In this document: positions 35,040 through 44,435 of the stretch, piece by piece | Layout: each line of letters starts with the position of its first letter | Numbering within the stretch: position 1 is the first letter of the stretch | From: Arthrobacter roseus | Lineage (GTDB): Bacteria > Actinomycetota > Actinomycetes > Actinomycetales > Micrococcaceae | Direction: 5' to 3' | Assembly: GCF_016907875.1 (NCBI RefSeq) | Contig: NZ_JAFBCU010000001.1 | Coordinates: 124,001-188,000, forward strand | DNA length: 64,000 bases | Notes under the pieces: model-generated | Databases searched by the model: none | Told to the model about the DNA's origin: nothing | What the model saw: the letters and a program-made list of their open reading frames with translations, nothing else | Translations under genes and position numbers: made by a program

Positions 35040-35657
35040 ATGCCAAGTTCACCCCTGCGTGCCAACACGGGCAGCCGTTTTCACGGCGTCCTGACAGTGC
35101 TCCTAGCGCTGTTACTCATTGCCATGTTGGCCTTTTTTGTCCTGTTCTCGAGCAAGGTTTCTGCTGGTGCCAACGAGCTCAACGACGGAGCCGTCCGCGC
35201 CTCCGACGGCGCTTCCGCCCTGAACACAGGGGCGGCCAAAGCGGTCGACGGAGCCGAGAAAGTCGAGGATGGGACAGCCAAGATCGACGGCGGCGCCCAG
35301 AAACTCGCCACCGGCCTGAAAGAGGCCAACACCGGGGCTGGAAAGCTCAAAAAGGGTGCAGCCGCGCTCGATAAAGGTGCCGGGAAGCTCTCTACCGGAG
35401 CTAACACGGCGGCCGAAGGTGCCATCACTCTGGAGGCAGGAGCAGCGAAGCTCGCCGTCGGAAGCGACAAGGTTGCCGCAGGTGCTGGCCGTGCCGACGT
35501 CGCTGCCCAGAAACTGTTCGGCGGCGCCTCCAAGTTGACTGCCGGAGCGACGGCGGCCAACAAGGGCTCCATCGATCTTTCCAACGGCGCTGGCCGGCTG
35601 GAAGCCGGAGCAGGGGAACTCGCCGCTGGCGCGAATCGGCTGACCACAGGCGCTAAG

Positions 35658-37326
35658 CCTTGATCCACCGATAGGTTTCTGAGGTTGCTCGGCGGTTTAA
35701 ACACGAAATGCCCGTCTTTTCAGGGAAAATTGGACTTACCACAGCTCAAGTTTCTCGAAAATGAAGGACATCTCGTAGATGCTAGTTTCCCATACCCCTG
35801 CCGCGGTGTCAGCTTCCTTTAACGAGGAGAACCTTGTGTCCGGGACCGGGCTGGTTCCGGTGATGCGTCTAGCCCAGAATGCGGGCTTGCACGAACTGGT
35901 CGATGAGTGGTTAAGCGTGCCCACGGACAAGGGCGCCAACGCCGGATTGAAGGTCGCAGCTTTGGTGGCGGGCATGGTCGCCGGGGCTGATTCCATTGAT
36001 GACATGGCCGTGTTGCGCCATGGCGGAATGAAGAAGATTTTCACGGGCTGTTACGCTCCTTCAACGCTGGGTTCATTCCTGCGCGCGTTCACGTTTGGGC
36101 ATGTGCGTCAGCTCGACGCGGTCGCTTCCCGTCTCCTGGTGAACCTGGCCAAGGCGGCACCCCTGTTGGGCACACCGTCCGGGGAGGACTTCATTTTTAT
36201 CGATGTTGACGACACCATCGTGGAGGTTCATGGGTATCAGAAGCAGGGCTCCAGCTACGGGTACTCCGGAGTTCGTGGGCTCAACGCCGTCCTGGCCACC
36301 GCTTCCACGAAGGACACGGCCCCGGTGATCATCGGCCAACGCTTGCGTAAGGGGGCCGCGAATTCGGCCCGCGGCGCTAAACGCTTCGTCACGGACGCAC
36401 TGGCCACCCTCAAACGCACCAACGTGGCAGGGAAGATGTTGTGTCGTTTTGATTCCGCCTACTATGGCCACGCCACAGTCAGTGCCGCCGTGGCTGGTGG
36501 GGCCGACGTTTCCGTGACGGTGCGCATGGACCCGGCCATCAAACGCGCCATCACCGCCATCGAGGAGACTGCGTGGGCGCCGATCCAGTACACGAACGCG
36601 GTCTTTGATGAGGCCACCAGTGCCTGGGTGTCCGCGGCGGAAGTCGCCGAAGTGGAGTTCACCGCGTTCTCCTCGCGGAAGAAGGCCGAGAGGATCACCG
36701 GGCGCCTGGTGGTACGCCGGATTCCTGAACTGAATCCCAAAGCCACCGATGGCCAGCCCACCTTGTTCGACACGCACCGATACCACGCGTTCTTCACCAC
36801 CGTCCCGGCCGGAACGCTCGGCACGGTCGAGGCCGACAAAACTCACCGTAAACACGCACAAATCGAGCAAGTCAACGCCGATATGAAGGACAGCGCCCTG
36901 GCTCACCTGCCCTCGGGGAAGTTCGCAGCGAATTCGGCCTGGCTGGTCGCTGCGGTGATGGCTTACAACCTCACCCGGGCTGCCGGGGTCTTGGCCAAAG
37001 GGACCTTCGCCAAAGCCCGGACCGGAACGATCCGGCGAAAGCTCATCAATGTCCCGGCCCGCATCGCCTCCAGCGCACGAAGAATATGCCTCCACCTACC
37101 CGAGGCATGGCCCTGGCAAACAGCCTGGGAGCAGCTCTCTGCCGCGACCCACGCGCCACCGCAAACGGCATAAAACCCATCCACCCAGCCGAAACCCGGC
37201 CCAACGAAGAACCCAAAACGTGGAACACCAACGGCAGCAAGGCCACCCGATCGTCCCTGCCCAAAAGCACAAAATCAAGCAAATCCTCGAATCAGCACGC
37301 ACCCGAACCGGATCGGTGGATCAAGG
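35658..37326 (+). mobile_element. IS1380-family insertion sequence
   Basis: The 1669-bp element is flanked by a 5-bp duplication CTAAG (35653-35657, 37327-37331). Terminal inverted repeats start CCTTGATCCACCGAT at both ends (left 35658, right end 37326 inverted). One transposase gene fills most of it. Terminal repeats, duplication and transposase are all intact, so the copy looks recent and potentially active. Confidence 0.92.
35779..37173 (+). CDS. IS1380-family transposase
   Basis: 464 residues, full length for the family. The DDE-type core has FIFIDVDDTIVEVHGY (first Asp), MLCRFDSAYYGHATV (second Asp) and the Glu-containing C-terminal part AQIEQVNADMKDSALAHLPSG, followed by the conserved FAANSAWLVAAVMAYNLTR. 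It catalyses movement of the surrounding element. The frame is uninterrupted. A start slightly downstream of 35779 is possible. Confidence 0.92.
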   Translation: MLVSHTPAAVSASFNEENLVSGTGLVPVMRLAQNAGLHELVDEWLSVPTDKGANAGLKVAALVAGMVAGADSIDDMAVLRHGGMKKIFTGCYAPSTLGSFLRAFTFGHVRQLDAVASRLLVNLAKAAPLLGTPSGEDFIFIDVDDTIVEVHGYQKQGSSYGYSGVRGLNAVLATASTKDTAPVIIGQRLRKGAANSARGAKRFVTDALATLKRTNVAGKMLCRFDSAYYGHATVSAAVAGGADVSVTVRMDPAIKRAITAIEETAWAPIQYTNAVFDEATSAWVSAAEVAEVEFTAFSSRKKAERITGRLVVRRIPELNPKATDGQPTLFDTHRYHAFFTTVPAGTLGTVEADKTHRKHAQIEQVNADMKDSALAHLPSGKFAANSAWLVAAVMAYNLTRAAGVLAKGTFAKARTGTIRRKLINVPARIASSARRICLHLPEAWPWQTAWEQLSAATHAPPQTA

Positions 37327-39047
37327 CTAAGTCGCTGTTCCAGGGCGCGGCCGCGGTTGACGAGGGCGTAACAAGCCTCGGAGCTGGCGTGGATCAAGTA
37401 CACAATGGCGCTGGCGCACTTTCGGCCGGAGCTGGCAAGGTTCAGGCCGGAGCACAACAGCTCGCAGCCGGAACGGACAAGGCCAAGGCCGGGTCAAAGC
37501 AGCTCGCAGACGGCACCGCAGCCGTTGATGCCGGACTCCGCGGCGATCCGAATAATGATGGGGCTGGCGGTATTGATGGAGGCGTCCATGCCCTTCAGGC
37601 AGGATCCGGAGACCTGAAGGCCGGTACGGAGGAGATCATCGCCGAGATCGACGTCAACCTGCCGCTGGCACAAGAATTGGTTGACGGGGCACAGCAGGTC
37701 AGTGATGGTGCAGCCACGGTGAACGGTGGCGTCCAGCAGATTGACGGCGGCCTCGGACAATTGCAGGCAGGGTTCAAGGGTGACGGATCTAACGAGAACC
37801 CTGGCGCCGTGGACGGCTCAAAGCAGCTCGCTGACGGCCTAGTGCAACTGCGAGCCGCGCTGAAGGCCGGTATTCCGCCAGCACTACTCATGGGCAAGAT
37901 CGATGAAGCTGTGGCCGGCGCGGAAAAACTGAATGTAGGAATCGTTCAAGCAGACGCCGGTGTTGATACCCTCAAGGCTGGCTCCTCGGAGCTCGCTCCG
38001 GGAACGGCCGCTCTCGCAGCCGGCGCAGCTAAGGTTCATGGCGGCACTCTGGAGTCTCAAGCCAAGACGCAACGTCTCCGCGACGAGGGCATGGTCCCCC
38101 TCGATGCTGGCGTCGTCAAAGTTCAGGATGGTTTGAACCAGCTGGATGCTGGTCTGCACGGCGGCGGCGACGGCGGCCAGCCCGGACTCCTGGAAGGCAC
38201 CGCTGCGCTCAAGGGCGGAGCCGCCAACCTCAACGGTGGCCTGGCACTTCTTCAGGCTGGCTACCAGGGTGACGGCACACCGCAGAACCCGGGGCTCCTC
38301 AAAGGTGTTGGCGCAATCGACGAGGGCGCATCGGCTCTCGCTGTCGGAACTACCAAGCTCAGTGCTGGTGCTGACAAGCTCTCAGCCGGAACAGGCCAGT
38401 TGGCCGCCGGGTCAAAGGAACTATTCGGTGGCACCACACAGGTTGCAACCGGAGCCAACACGCTCGCAGGTGGTGCTGGTGAGTTGAGCGCAGGTTCGTT
38501 GCAGCTTGCCGATGGCAACGGAAAGATCGCCGCCGGAGCTGTGAAGCTCGAAGATGGAACGGGCGAACTCGCCTTCAAGACTCCGGGCCTCGTTGAGGGC
38601 GCCTACACGGCCGCCGATGGGGCTCGGAAGATCGGTGACGGTGCGTCGAAGCTCGCGGACGGCAACTACAAGTTGGCCGAGGGCGCAACGAAGCTGGAAG
38701 ACGGTTCCGGAAAGCTCGTGGACGGCACCAAGTCGCTGGCCAAGGGCACCGAGAAGCTCAACACAGGTGCCGGTGATCTGAGTAAGGGCACCGCCAAGCT
38801 CAACGCCGGTGCTTCCGAGCTCGCGGACGGCAACGCTGCACTGGCCGAGGGTGCAAGTCAGCTCGCGGACGGCAATGGCAAGATCCATGACGGCACGGAG
38901 AGGATGAGTTCGGCAACGTCAGCAATGACACCAGCCCAGATTTTCACTTCCCCGGCAGTCCTGGCGGTTCTCATCCCGCTCCTGCTGGTCGGTGGCCTAC
39001 TGGTCATGATGCTCGTGACGCGTTCACGCCGCGCCCACTAGCAACTA

Positions 39048-39103
39048 GGCACAGCAAAGAGGGCGGTTACTGCTTCGGCAGTGACCGCCCTCTTCGCTGT
39101 GCC
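39048..39103. terminator. Bidirectional-type terminator hairpin with TTCG loop
   Basis: Arms 39048-39073 and 39078-39103 (26 bp, two mismatches) close on a TTCG tetraloop. It directly follows the heptad-repeat gene and faces the convergent thioesterase gene. Confidence 0.85.
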
Positions 39104-39859: not shown

Positions 39860-41779
39860 TTACTTGACTGCTACTGCCACATCGTCCACGTAGAACGACG
39901 TTGACTGTGATCCGTCTTCCTGACCGAGGAAGCGCAGAGTCACGCTCTTGCCGGCGTACCCATTCAGGTCAAGGGTGCGCTTGACGTAACCCTGGCCCTT
40001 GTCGAGGTTGGAATATGTGGCTAGAGTCTTCGTTCCCGAAGAAGTGATGGCCTGAACCTTCATCGTGTCGTACTTGCTGTAGCGACTTGTTTCATTGGAG
40101 AGCACTGCCAGGTAGAAGTCCACCTTCGCCGCAGCACCGTTAGCCGGTACCGTTACAGCCTGATCCAACTGGTAGGTGGTGCTTGATCCCCAGCCATTCA
40201 GGTAACCGAACTTTGACCCTGAGTGTGCGGAGGTCCCGCTGCTGATGACATCAGACCGGTTGGAGCTCCACCCGGAGATACCCGATTCGAAACTCGGGTT
40301 GACCAGCAGGTTGCCGCCAACGGGATCCGGATCCGGCGTTTCGCCGCCGGCCACGGCATTCACAGCAGCCGTGGCGTCAACAAGGCCCGCTCCACAACCG
40401 CCGGAGCAGGTGCCTGCGAGAGGGCGAGTGGTGTCCTTCAGGAGAGTTTCCACCTGGGCTGGTGTCAGCGTGCTGTCGGCTTCATTGAGCAGTGCAACAA
40501 GACCTGCAACATGCGGGGTGGCCATGGACGTGCCCTGGTACTCCGCGTAGCCCTCGGCTCCGGGGGTGGTGCGGCCGGTGTTGATGGTGGAAAGGACGCC
40601 GCGGTCGTTGGAGGAATCTCCACCCGGGGCGGTCACGTCAATGTCGGCTCCATAGTTGGAGTACGGGGCGCGGTTGCCGAAACGGTCACTCGCGGCCACG
40701 TTGATCACGTTGTCGCAGTTGCCCGGGTTTGAGTTGGATGCGTTCTGGTTAGCGTTACCGGCGGCCACGACGACTGATGTTCCGCGCGAAACGGCTCCGT
40801 TGATGGCGTTCTGGTAGGTGGCGCTGCAGGTGCCGCTTCCACCAAGGCTCATGTTGATGACATCGGCTTTGTTGGGGTTAGCTGGAACGCCGCTCACTGA
40901 TCCGCCGGAGGACCAGACGATGGCCTCGGAGATGTCGGACAGATAGCCACCGCACTTGCCAAGAACCCGCACGGGAACAATGTTGGCGTTATAGGCAACG
41001 CCCGCAACACCCTTGCTGTTGTTGGTAACGGCCGCAATGGTGCCTGCTACGTGCGTGCCGTGCCAGGAGGAACTACCCGAGCCGCCGCCGCCACATTCAC
41101 CGGATGCGTACCAGTCACCCTCATCAGCAGCGTTGCTGTCGCGGCCGTTGCCGTCGCGCGCCATGCCCGAGTCGGCAATGAAATCGTAGCCCGGGAGCAC
41201 GTTGGCATTGAGGTCGCTGTGACTGGTGATGCCGGTGTCGATGACAGCTACGTTGACGCCCTCACCCGTGACCTTGTCCCAGGCGGTTGGCAGGTTCATG
41301 CCTGCGGTCTGACCGAAGTAGTGCCACTGATCGTCGTAGCGGGGGTCGTTGGGTGTGGAGGTGGGCTTCATGAGAAGGTCCGGCTCGATATACTCCACGT
41401 CGGTGGAGGAAACGAGCTTCTTCATGAAGGACTTGGCCTTATCTGATGACAGCTCCTTGCTCAGGTCGATGACCTGGGCGCCGTCGGACATGGTGCGGAG
41501 TTCCTTGACTTTGACGCCGTATTCCTTGGCGATCTTGCCGTAAGCGTTCGCACGTCCTTGTGCGTTGCTTGCCTGCGCCTTCTCCTTGAACTTCACGATG
41601 TAACGGTCGTAGGTCTTGCTGTTCTCGATGTTCTGTACCTGGGCGATGCCGTCCCCGGCGCCGTCTGCTCTATCGCTGTTGTCGCCCATTGCTGGAGCGA
41701 CGCTCAGCCCCATTGAGCCGACGACGACGGCGGCCGAGAGGGCCAGCGCCTTCACAGCTCCGCGGTGTGTTGCACGCAT
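39860..41779 (-). CDS. Secreted subtilisin-like protease with C-terminal beta domain
   Basis: 639 residues. Sec signal (VKALALSAAVVVGSMGLSV), inhibitor-I9 prodomain at about 55-135 (YDRYIVKFKEKAQAS, VEYIEPDLLMKP), and S8 catalytic domain at 150-480: Asp in VNVAVIDTGITSH, His in SSWHGTHVAGTIA, Asn in VVVAAGNANQN, Ser in QGTSMATPHVAGLVA. After a short GGETPDPDP linker a 145-residue domain (NLLVNPSFESGISGWSSN) has carbohydrate-binding-module-like beta sandwich sequence. The family is close to fungal and bacterial proteinase-K/aqualysin types. GGAGAAA precedes the ATG. A TAATCTAGATCACA upstream (41854-41867) is half of a CRP-like site. Confidence 0.92.
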   Translation of the reverse strand: MRATHRGAVKALALSAAVVVGSMGLSVAPAMGDNSDRADGAGDGIAQVQNIENSKTYDRYIVKFKEKAQASNAQGRANAYGKIAKEYGVKVKELRTMSDGAQVIDLSKELSSDKAKSFMKKLVSSTDVEYIEPDLLMKPTSTPNDPRYDDQWHYFGQTAGMNLPTAWDKVTGEGVNVAVIDTGITSHSDLNANVLPGYDFIADSGMARDGNGRDSNAADEGDWYASGECGGGGSGSSSWHGTHVAGTIAAVTNNSKGVAGVAYNANIVPVRVLGKCGGYLSDISEAIVWSSGGSVSGVPANPNKADVINMSLGGSGTCSATYQNAINGAVSRGTSVVVAAGNANQNASNSNPGNCDNVINVAASDRFGNRAPYSNYGADIDVTAPGGDSSNDRGVLSTINTGRTTPGAEGYAEYQGTSMATPHVAGLVALLNEADSTLTPAQVETLLKDTTRPLAGTCSGGCGAGLVDATAAVNAVAGGETPDPDPVGGNLLVNPSFESGISGWSSNRSDVISSGTSAHSGSKFGYLNGWGSSTTYQLDQAVTVPANGAAAKVDFYLAVLSNETSRYSKYDTMKVQAITSSGTKTLATYSNLDKGQGYVKRTLDLNGYAGKSVTLRFLGQEDGSQSTSFYVDDVAVAVK

Positions 41780-41972: not shown

Positions 41973-44435
41973 CTAGAGGTGGCCCCGTTTGGTCAGGAAC
42001 CGGATGGCGGTCCACCCGAACGGAACTCTCAACCAAAAACTGATGAGCCGGAATAGCAGAACGGCAGACAGGGCCACCGCGGCATCCACCCCTGTGGCTG
42101 TCAATCCGAGCACCAGGGAGGACTCAACCGCACCCAGCCCTCCCGGCGTCGGCACGATGGAGCCGAGCAAGTTGCCGATCAGGTAAACGATCACCAGATG
42201 GATGGCGTCGATGGAGGCGCCGAACGCGGCCAGACACGCTGCAAAAGTGAGGACGTATGCGGCGTTCGACAGGACGATTCCGCCCAGTGTCAGCACAAGC
42301 CGGCGAGGCTGGGTCAGCACGTCCAGCATGCGCGGCAGAGTGCCGGTAACAAGGGCGCTCCACTGCCGTTGCGTGAACTTTCTGACTGACGGGATCAGCA
42401 GCGAGGTGGTGGCGAGCGCCAGAAGGCCAAGCACGACGGCGATTGCCACGGGCACCGGGACCAGTTCGAACGTGTCGGTGCCGGTTGCTCCTGCGGAAAA
42501 TCCGCTGGCGACGGCAAGGGCGAGGACGACGAGTCCCATAACGGCGAGCATCGAGATCTGGAGCAGTCCCATGCTGGTCACGGCTATGGGTGTGCGCACA
42601 CCGGCCTGTTGCAGGTATCGGGCGTTGAGCGCAGGTGCGCCCACTCCGGCGGGGGTGATGAGCGCCGTGAATGAGGCACCGATCTGGACAAGAACGCTGC
42701 GCCAATAACGCAGTTTTACCGGTGCGACTCCGTGAAGGGACATTGCTGTCCCTAGATAAGTCGTCAGTGAAAGCGCCAGCGCGACCACAGCCCACCAGGG
42801 GTTTGCGGTTTCCAGCAGATCCGCGAAGTTGATGTCGGCTACCTGGATGGCGAGTAGGTAGGCGGCGAGCGCACCAGCTGCGATGGCGACAATTTTGCGG
42901 GTGCTGAACCTGCTGACCTGCTCGGGCTCTGTCTGGGCTTCCGGGACTAATGCTGTGATGGCAGCGCGCAGTTCGGGCAGGATGGTGGTGTCGCGGCGCA
43001 GGATGCGCCGAGTGGATCCGGGGATGACCAGTGGTTGGAGCACGGGTAGCGCTCTGATCACTGTCCGCCTGCCTATGCAGCGCACCCCGGACTCGACCGC
43101 TCGCTGAGATCCAACAACTGTTGCGAGCGCCGTCAGCAATTGGGCCAGGTCCAGCTGTTTGGCCAGCGGGGAGGCTGCGACTTCCCCTTCTTGCAGTCCT
43201 CGGAGCCAGACGTTGCCGTCGTCGTCAAAGCAGACAGTCTCTCGGCTCAGGGACCGGTGAGCAACATTGCCGGCGTGGAGCTTATGCAGTTGGTGCCAGA
43301 TGTCGTCCAATTGGGCGTCGGTGACTGTGTCGTCGTCGCGCTGCCCCAGCGCATACATGGTGGGCGTGGATTCGGTGGCCAGAAGAACAGAGGAGAGGCC
43401 GACGTCGGCGATGGTGATCAGTTGTGGCACTCTGGCGCCAGTCGCCGCCGCCATGGTGAGGATGAGCGCGTCTTTCTCGGCAGTCTGGCGCAGGGAGATG
43501 CGGGCCTGACGTCGCATCGCTTCTCGGATTCTGACGGCTCTCCAGAGTTCCACGAACGATCCGCGAATCCTGCTGTCCTCATCGAGTACGGCCAGGTCGA
43601 GACGACGTCCGTTGGTTTCTTCTACTCGGTAGAGCCGCAAACCGTAGCTGCGCGGCGATTGCCAGGCGTAGGGCTGCCCGGCGTCCATCCCGAGAGGAAC
43701 TCTGTGGATTCGTGACGGCGCGAGGCCTGCGGCGCGCATCGCCTGGACTAGCCCGGCTCCCCGGTGATCCTTGAACCCTCGAAGCATTCGGACGGTGAGG
43801 CCCACGAGCCTACCCACGAAGAACGTGAGAAGTGCGGCGCCCAACGCCAGCCTGTTGCCGAAGACGCTGAATCCCAGTGAGAGCAGCAGCGCAACCCACG
43901 CCACGTTGAGGGTGCTGAGGTTGCGGCGTGGCCCGAGCGCGGTCAGCAGCGCCACGAAGGCTACGGAGTGGGAGAGGATGGGTGAATTCTGACCGGCTGG
44001 TGCAACGACGGTCAGTGCGTTGAGTAGCCTGTCCGGTGCGGTCTGCTCCAGGAGCAGTCGCACACCAAAACTGACGACGACGCCGGCTGCCGCGGCTAGA
44101 ATGCCGGCTCCGACGTGGTGAAGTGCTCGGCGGATCAGCAGTTCCACGAGCGTGATGAGCGGAATCAGCACGGCGATGGAGCCAAGGGCGTTAAGCGGGA
44201 GGCTCAGCAGTGGCCCGGAGACGTCTAGTAGTTGGCGAAGATCGTCGTCGAGCCCATTAACTGTCCGGGGCAGATACAGCTCAAGACCGAGTGTGAGGAG
44301 GACTCCAGCAGCTGAGAGCAGTAGCTGGATGAGGTCCGATGGGCGGCGCAATCGGTCGCCTTTTTCCTCATCAGCAAAGTCGCTGGCCGCGCGAAACGGA
44401 GAGGCTCCCTGTCCGTTCTCCACTGCACTCACCAC
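41973..44435 (-). CDS. Membrane protein: TM region, kinase-like domain and UPF0104/MprF-type flippase region
   Basis: 820 residues. About six membrane segments (35-230) are followed by a soluble kinase-like domain (about 255-480; RLDLAVLDEDSRIRG, LHKLHAGNVAHRSLSRETV, VWLRGL). Then a UPF0104/lysylphosphatidylglycerol-synthetase transmembrane region (about 500-815) carries the family's ITPAGVGAPALNARYL and VPTPGGLGAVESSLVLG motifs. In the kinase part HRSL replaces HRDL, so catalysis is doubtful. Such proteins are thought to move polyprenyl- or phospholipid-linked sugars or lipids across the membrane. GTG 44435 and GTG 44432 both fit; TTTAAT lies 6 nt before the second. Confidence 0.8.
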   Translation of the reverse strand: MVSAVENGQGASPFRAASDFADEEKGDRLRRPSDLIQLLLSAAGVLLTLGLELYLPRTVNGLDDDLRQLLDVSGPLLSLPLNALGSIAVLIPLITLVELLIRRALHHVGAGILAAAAGVVVSFGVRLLLEQTAPDRLLNALTVVAPAGQNSPILSHSVAFVALLTALGPRRNLSTLNVAWVALLLSLGFSVFGNRLALGAALLTFFVGRLVGLTVRMLRGFKDHRGAGLVQAMRAAGLAPSRIHRVPLGMDAGQPYAWQSPRSYGLRLYRVEETNGRRLDLAVLDEDSRIRGSFVELWRAVRIREAMRRQARISLRQTAEKDALILTMAAATGARVPQLITIADVGLSSVLLATESTPTMYALGQRDDDTVTDAQLDDIWHQLHKLHAGNVAHRSLSRETVCFDDDGNVWLRGLQEGEVAASPLAKQLDLAQLLTALATVVGSQRAVESGVRCIGRRTVIRALPVLQPLVIPGSTRRILRRDTTILPELRAAITALVPEAQTEPEQVSRFSTRKIVAIAAGALAAYLLAIQVADINFADLLETANPWWAVVALALSLTTYLGTAMSLHGVAPVKLRYWRSVLVQIGASFTALITPAGVGAPALNARYLQQAGVRTPIAVTSMGLLQISMLAVMGLVVLALAVASGFSAGATGTDTFELVPVPVAIAVVLGLLALATTSLLIPSVRKFTQRQWSALVTGTLPRMLDVLTQPRRLVLTLGGIVLSNAAYVLTFAACLAAFGASIDAIHLVIVYLIGNLLGSIVPTPGGLGAVESSLVLGLTATGVDAAVALSAVLLFRLISFWLRVPFGWTAIRFLTKRGHL

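Follow-up and report, generated by a model that had tools for sequence, protein, structure and literature searches.

Background

Proteins of the YueB/EsaA type, which belong to type VIIb secretion, have a large ectodomain anchored at both ends, with a length described as sufficient for spanning the wall, and YueB itself is the irreversible receptor of phage SPP1 (PMC9863714). In Enterococcus faecalis, phage-resistant isolates were mapped to the gene for the phage infection protein Pip, an IS256 insertion among them (PMC4999554). YhgE/Pip proteins carry Leu-x-x-Gly heptads (model TIGR03057) in a rod that has an N-terminal helix on one side and a C-terminal membrane region on the other. A related rod gene, with just two membrane helices and split by an insertion sequence (IS) of the IS1380 family, lies in a 64,000-nucleotide stretch of the Arthrobacter roseus genome (the window; positions 124001-188000 of a single-contig genome of 3,076,990 bases). 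To our knowledge, the role of the huge heptad region in YhgE/Pip/YueB-type proteins, and how it stands in the thick wall, are poorly worked out. On balance, and with some reserve, we favour the view that the intact gene encodes a membrane-anchored antiparallel hairpin stalk crossing the wall, broken here by the IS with probable loss of the protein. None of the titles and abstract openings listed in searches of the open-licence literature described a two-helix Leu-x-x-Gly protein; the hairpin reading is what is new here, and the co-variation of its arm lengths is the most useful result.

Results and discussion

An IS1380-family element splits the rod gene

The initial annotation had described a 775-residue Leu-x-x-Gly rod split by an intact IS1380 element, and the coordinates, the element and the open frame were all confirmed (Table 1). 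Joining the flanks with a single copy of CTAAG gives one 775-residue frame with no internal stops, the break falling after residue 206. The 5′ part, preceded by a Shine-Dalgarno (SD)-like AGAGGA upstream of the start at 35040, codes for a basic N-terminus followed by a membrane helix and by Leu-x-x-Gly heptads; its frame (35040-35663) now runs through 206 rod codons and stops at codon 2 of the IS. The figure of about 100 heptads given earlier was fair, as hydrophobic-x-x-Gly motifs number 26 in the 5′ part and 71 in the 3′ part, 97 in total (14 + 47 = 61 for strict L-x-x-G), and 85 of the 97 (23 + 62) keep a 7-residue phase, far above chance (shuffle means 1.8 and 6.3, maxima 6 and 17). The TIGR03057 repeat model scored 145.6 and 78.1 bits on the window's two pieces (cut-off 18.6), and a search of the whole A. 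roseus genome with it returned the rod locus only, a second such rod not being found. The rod has one hydrophobic segment per end, in agreement with the two membrane helices proposed before.

The transposase matched NF033539 over positions 2-419 of 419 with 360.7 bits (cut-off 180) and, together with terminal inverted repeats and a 5-bp direct repeat, gives the element the features of the IS1380 family. It differs in that the direct repeat was CTAAG in 4/4 copies examined, while the target of the family is less fixed than this. Three copies are present in the genome, one differing from the window copy at 1/1669 bases and the third at 21, and CTAAG stands on both sides of all three; an element on a Pseudarthrobacter plasmid, 74.8% identical, likewise lies between two CTAAG. 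CTAAG therefore seems to be a preferred target of the element, and the duplication noted at the outset, present on both sides as claimed, says less for a random hit than it would at first sight. The rod gene contains two CTAAG/CTTAG sites, the occupied one and one at 38029, and at the matching place a congener reads CGAAG in an open frame with no IS. That the insertion is recent, as the initial annotation held, is supported because the rod frame has no other lesion and a genomic copy differs at a single base.

Relatives of the rod gene are uninterrupted

A 70-column model of the helix-1 region was searched against 149 genomes of the family and matched in 36 of them at E<=5.6e-12, A. roseus (G000) included. 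At E<=0.001 the number rose to 88/149, the matches listed beyond the 36 being to heptads alone, and at order level 9/198 genomes matched at E<=1e-9. The 36 proteins examined as relatives come from 34 of the other 35 family genomes and from two named Arthrobacter loci; G029 was left out, its gene running into assembly Ns. The frame was uninterrupted in all 36, and an IS conserved at the same position, named beforehand as a possible objection, was thus not found. The congener (G001), which lacks the IS, has an intact gene of 768 aa with a rod of 704 residues, to which the window pieces are 85% and 76% identical.

Exactly two hydrophobic segments, one near either end, were present in 33/36 relatives, and the other three (G138, G150 and G149) have one additional marginal internal stretch each. 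Of 14 proteins checked, 13 have a net positive charge in the segments outside the two helices, which fits an N-in/C-in topology and places the rod on the outer side of the membrane. In the 10 relatives scanned against NCBIfam, TIGR03057 was found in all 10, and sub-cut-off matches to SMC/Rad50-like coiled coils were present in six; the latter were taken as composition and kinship with SMC/Rad50 was set aside.

A neutral or mildly helpful recent insertion at a preferred CTAAG, in a strain for which the gene is dispensable, is an explanation to which we give an even chance. The shared target of the three genomic copies and the plasmid relative fits it, as does the confinement of the helix-1 region to 36 of 149 family genomes, which means that many relatives live without the gene. 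Against it stand the uninterrupted frames of the relatives (G029 aside) and the comparison of the window and congener rods, in which nonsynonymous divergence (dN) was 0.145 and synonymous divergence (dS) 1.17, the latter near saturation; this says that the intact rod gene was under purifying selection and so mattered.

Arm lengths and mirrored defects point to a hairpin

The rod probably doubles back at its midpoint, which would form the tip of an antiparallel hairpin. Without reference to any motif, the largest gap in the heptads falls at 0.40-0.61 of the rod in 36/36 relatives, G009 having two equal largest gaps at 0.61 and 0.49. Among five proteins later taken from two other families, it falls at 0.47-0.54 in four, and the fifth is a near-tie of 28, 28 and 27 residues at 0.70, 0.34 and 0.50, a mirrored arrangement. 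An 18-column model of the non-heptad part of the tip, rebuilt over four rounds and used at an iE below 1e-3, placed the motif ~NPAVPxGLLxxKL at 0.473-0.498 of the rod in 17/36 proteins (six of the 17 being model seeds). In these 17, with rods of 391-742 residues, the two arms co-vary almost perfectly in length (N arm 193-369 residues, C arm 198-376; r 0.996), and r was 0.994 over 12 distinct arm pairs. Weaker hits (iE 0.003-0.14) were central in G023 (0.495), G026 (0.472), G150 (0.494) and G062 (0.464), and tips were placed by eye in G001 (0.487), G034 (0.492), G009 (0.492) and G032 (0.5); a search by eye for the tip string in G079 and G138 found none. An earlier 28-column model that included post-tip heptads was discarded, as, in members lacking a distinct tip, it picked up ordinary heptads and so gave scattered placements (r -0.63 over 36).

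Irregularities along the arms mirror one another as well. In a test of heptad defects in 28 representatives, with the centre masked and 200 null runs, the mean mirrored r was 0.36 against a null of 0.11 (standard deviation 0.04, maximum 0.22 of 200), and the parallel, unmirrored control gave 0.08. There are also two kinks, of which RADxAAxKL belongs to the N arm and KTPDL to the C arm. In 7 proteins whose rods measure 485-742 residues, their distances from the membrane are 114-115 and 123-128 residues, and in an eighth protein with both kinks (G067) the two distances are shortened together, to 99 and 114.

From these features we infer a helical hairpin in the wall that serves as a stalk. The intact protein would be anchored by one membrane helix per end with both termini cytoplasmic, and its Leu-x-x-Gly ectodomain would fold back at the mid-rod tip into an antiparallel helical hairpin. 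The ectodomain measures 391-896 residues across the 36 relatives; with a helix rise of 0.15 nm per residue the computed height is 29-67 nm, and 52.8 nm for the congener with its 704-residue rod. Such a hairpin would be tall enough to cross the wall and to show its tip at the surface, and a wall-crossing stalk is the most likely form of the intact protein. The wall-spanning rod of the initial annotation thus survives in part: the rod does lie between two helices, but is probably a hairpin of ~53 nm, judging from the congener, rather than an extended rod of twice that length, which the central gap and the mirrored defects disfavour.

Several observations weigh against this interpretation. The strict tip motif was missed in 19/36 relatives, the window's own type included, for which the location (0.487) is a placement by eye and not a model hit; one weak hit (G085) is off-centre at 0.389, eight relatives gave tip hits only at iE 0.43 or worse and located elsewhere, and six gave none. 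The mirror test singly reached p<=0.05 in 11/28 representatives, which are not phylogenetically independent; six (G023, G067, G062, G085, G150 and G118) were not above their own null mean, and the parallel control exceeded the mirror in five (G167, G067, G150, G156 and G118). The C-arm kink occurs alone in 8/36, at 126 (six) or 135 (two) residues, and neither kink motif in 20/36. Rods vary two-fold inside one genus (g32: 445-896), which is hard to reconcile with a strict ruler of the wall, yet their largest heptad gap remains near the middle, at 0.46-0.50. Neighbouring genes are of little help to a stalk function: no conserved gene partners were found, the sharing of neighbours being limited to small sets of loci (L042 and L045 adjoin a HAD hydrolase and a glutamyl/glutaminyl-tRNA synthetase, other loci lie elsewhere), and the scanned neighbour genes showed no functional link to the rod. 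The structure predictions are also poor. AlphaFold2 (AF2) models, built on alignments of 9 and 7 sequences, were of low confidence for a 548-aa relative from Arthrobacter rhombi (rod 485; mean predicted local distance difference test (pLDDT) 69.3, predicted template modelling score (pTM) 0.52) and poorer for the congener (pLDDT 62.5, pTM 0.49), and the top VIA match of the AF2 model was a four-helix bundle (Z 12.8, root-mean-square deviation 3.3, 197 aligned).

This last match raises the alternative that the ectodomain is a shorter up-down-up-down bundle of four helices with the conserved 'tip' near the membrane. The A. rhombi model consists of long helices with breaks at 148-151, 268-275 (the tip) and 395-398, roughly at the quarter, half and three-quarter marks of the protein, as such a bundle would have. 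In the 7 proteins described above, in contrast, the kinks keep their heights over the whole range of rods from 485 to 742 residues. Long members would then need four helices of very different length, which favours the two-helix hairpin for long rods. With the AF2 confidence also low, we consider the bundle unlikely; AF2 may have folded the hairpin a second time. The prediction of repeat structure proposed earlier thus gave helices with a mid-rod break, in line with the hairpin, with the low confidence and the bundle match set against it.

Fold searches returned only generic long-helix matches. The single PDB match at E<=0.001 was 8w20, the Umb1 umbrella particle (Foldseek E 2.5e-4, VIA Z 10.9), no viral model matched at that threshold, and enterococcal PrgA (6z9l) gave a VIA Z of 9.2. 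Both share long helices with the rod, and such scores are common for long helices; no sequence relation to the rod was shown for either. Both carry coiled-coil stalks. A sequence search for solved relatives found only coiled-coil, designed-helix and other repetitive chains.

The rod resembles a YhgE/Pip stalk without the permease

Absence of a YhgE permease domain, as first proposed, was borne out. The N-terminal YhgE model TIGR03061 matched neither window piece nor any other place in the A. roseus genome, and TIGR03062, the model of the C-terminal YhgE part, gave no match over cut-off in A. roseus or the congener; with both tests negative, the rod protein was not filed as YhgE. No YhgE model was found in the 10 scanned relatives. 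A YhgE domain encoded in a missing part, which had been named as a possible objection, was rejected on this ground and also because the empty-site frame has no stop and the congener aligns with one piece before the break and with the other after it. TIGR03062 exceeds its cut-off in 104/149 family genomes, and a full YhgE accompanies the two-helix protein in 33 of the 36 genomes that have the latter, the exceptions being A. roseus, the congener and G004.

Canonical YhgE proteins, too, have their largest heptad gap near the centre (0.47-0.52 of the heptad block; 8/8 examined), so that a mid-rod largest gap is common to these and to all 36 two-helix proteins. Besides lacking the N-terminal YhgE domain, the two-helix protein differs in that its rod starts directly after helix 1 and ends in one helix, whereas YhgE/Pip has four or five C-terminal hydrophobic segments; YueB/EsaA has one plus five membrane helices against two. 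To judge by its domain plan, the two-helix protein looks like a permease-less variant of the YhgE/Pip stalk, and the stalk proposed here would be of the YhgE/Pip/YueB type without the permease. No type VII component was found among the scanned rod neighbours; WXG100 matches over cut-off lie at 930554 and 1315268, not adjacent to the rod at ~159-163 kb (EssC ATPase was not searched), and a third, under cut-off, is the rod itself.

By analogy with Pip and YueB, the rod could be an irreversible phage surface receptor and the insertion could have been selected for phage resistance. The IS256 insertion in the Pip gene, the SPP1 receptor role of YueB and the central-gap plan shared with canonical YhgE agree with this. 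So does the divergence between the A. roseus rod and that of the congener, which peaks at 0.6-0.9 of the height (identity 63-72%, against 79-86% lower down and 83% at the tip), a zone that is possibly exposed and variable surface. Height-dependent divergence is missing in some of the pairs compared, however, and with a recurrent CTAAG target, of which the rod gene offers two sites with one used, a chance hit suffices without phage selection. We therefore regard phage selection as rather improbable. A wider picture, in which the two-helix proteins are stand-alone wall-crossing stalks freed of the YhgE/Pip permease, change their arms by paired insertions with the tip at the summit and act as surface receptors or spacers, and in which the loss seen here was a phage escape, is likewise doubtful. 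In a permease-less version the stalk is set apart from the transporter, and from sequence alone the co-varying arms give a reading of the residues that lie opposite one another and of their height. The idea of wall crossing is thereby directly testable, with the A. roseus strain, in which no other such rod was found, as a natural null.

The insertion probably abolishes the protein

On the hairpin model, the IS1380-family element would have entered its preferred CTAAG site half way up the ascending arm. The ~170 ascending-arm residues of the 5′ piece are left without an arm to pair with, and the 3′ piece lacks an export helix, which makes loss of function likely and the protein probably abolished. 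As noted initially, the 3′ part is open into the IS and lacks a proper start: its frame reaches back to an ATG at 37086, inside the IS, with ~80 codons of IS sequence first and no more than a weak SD-like GAAG before it. In the second IS copy (L002 2924-3550) the same ATG-started frame of the IS end continues into the flank, and in the third (L003 3113-3496) a minus-strand frame that begins in the flank enters the IS end; the open frame leading into the 3′ rod part is thus due in part to the IS end itself. It is hardly credible that the cell goes on making both pieces as a functional split protein, with the transposase transcript as the source of the 3′ one. Transposase and rod do share a strand, and an ATG in the IS opens the 3′ frame, but this piece has no membrane helix 1, a weak SD-like signal and a leader of IS codons.

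Table 1 Features of the split rod gene and its IS1380-family element (window positions)
Feature	Coordinates	Strand	Remarks
5′ part of split rod gene	35040..35657	+	cytoplasmic N-terminus, membrane helix 1, lower half of putative ascending arm; 206 codons; TIGR03057 E 2.3e-22
Left CTAAG target copy	35653..35657	+	direct repeat flanking IS
IS1380-family insertion sequence, 1669 bp	35658..37326	+	15/15 perfect terminal inverted repeats; 1 of 3 genomic copies
IS1380 transposase, 464 aa, apparently intact	35779..37173	+	same orientation as rod gene
651-codon open frame starting in IS and running through 3′ rod part	37086..39041	+	without membrane helix 1
Right CTAAG target copy	37327..37331	+	direct repeat flanking IS
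3′ part of split rod gene	37329..39041	+	rest of putative ascending arm, tip region, descending arm, membrane helix 2, basic tail, stop; TIGR03057 E 1e-43
Tip region KAGIPPALL	from 37863	+	within 3′ part of rod gene
Imperfect inverted repeat, 50 bases, terminator-like	39051..39100	+	directly after rod stop codon

Surroundings of the locus

A promoter scan returned 0 sites, and a consensus scan left the inverted repeat at 39051-39100 unflagged; the congener has a similar inverted repeat 3′ of its own rod gene. The rods of Nesterenkonia massiliensis (L058 5965-8283) and G029 (L041 5221-6955) run into assembly Ns, and long repeats may break assemblies at such rod genes. The minus strand downstream of the A. 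roseus rod encodes a subtilase-family protease and a protein whose membrane region is of the LPG-synthase type (39860-41779 and 41973-44435). The upstream gene order differs from that of the congener, and the downstream order is common to both.

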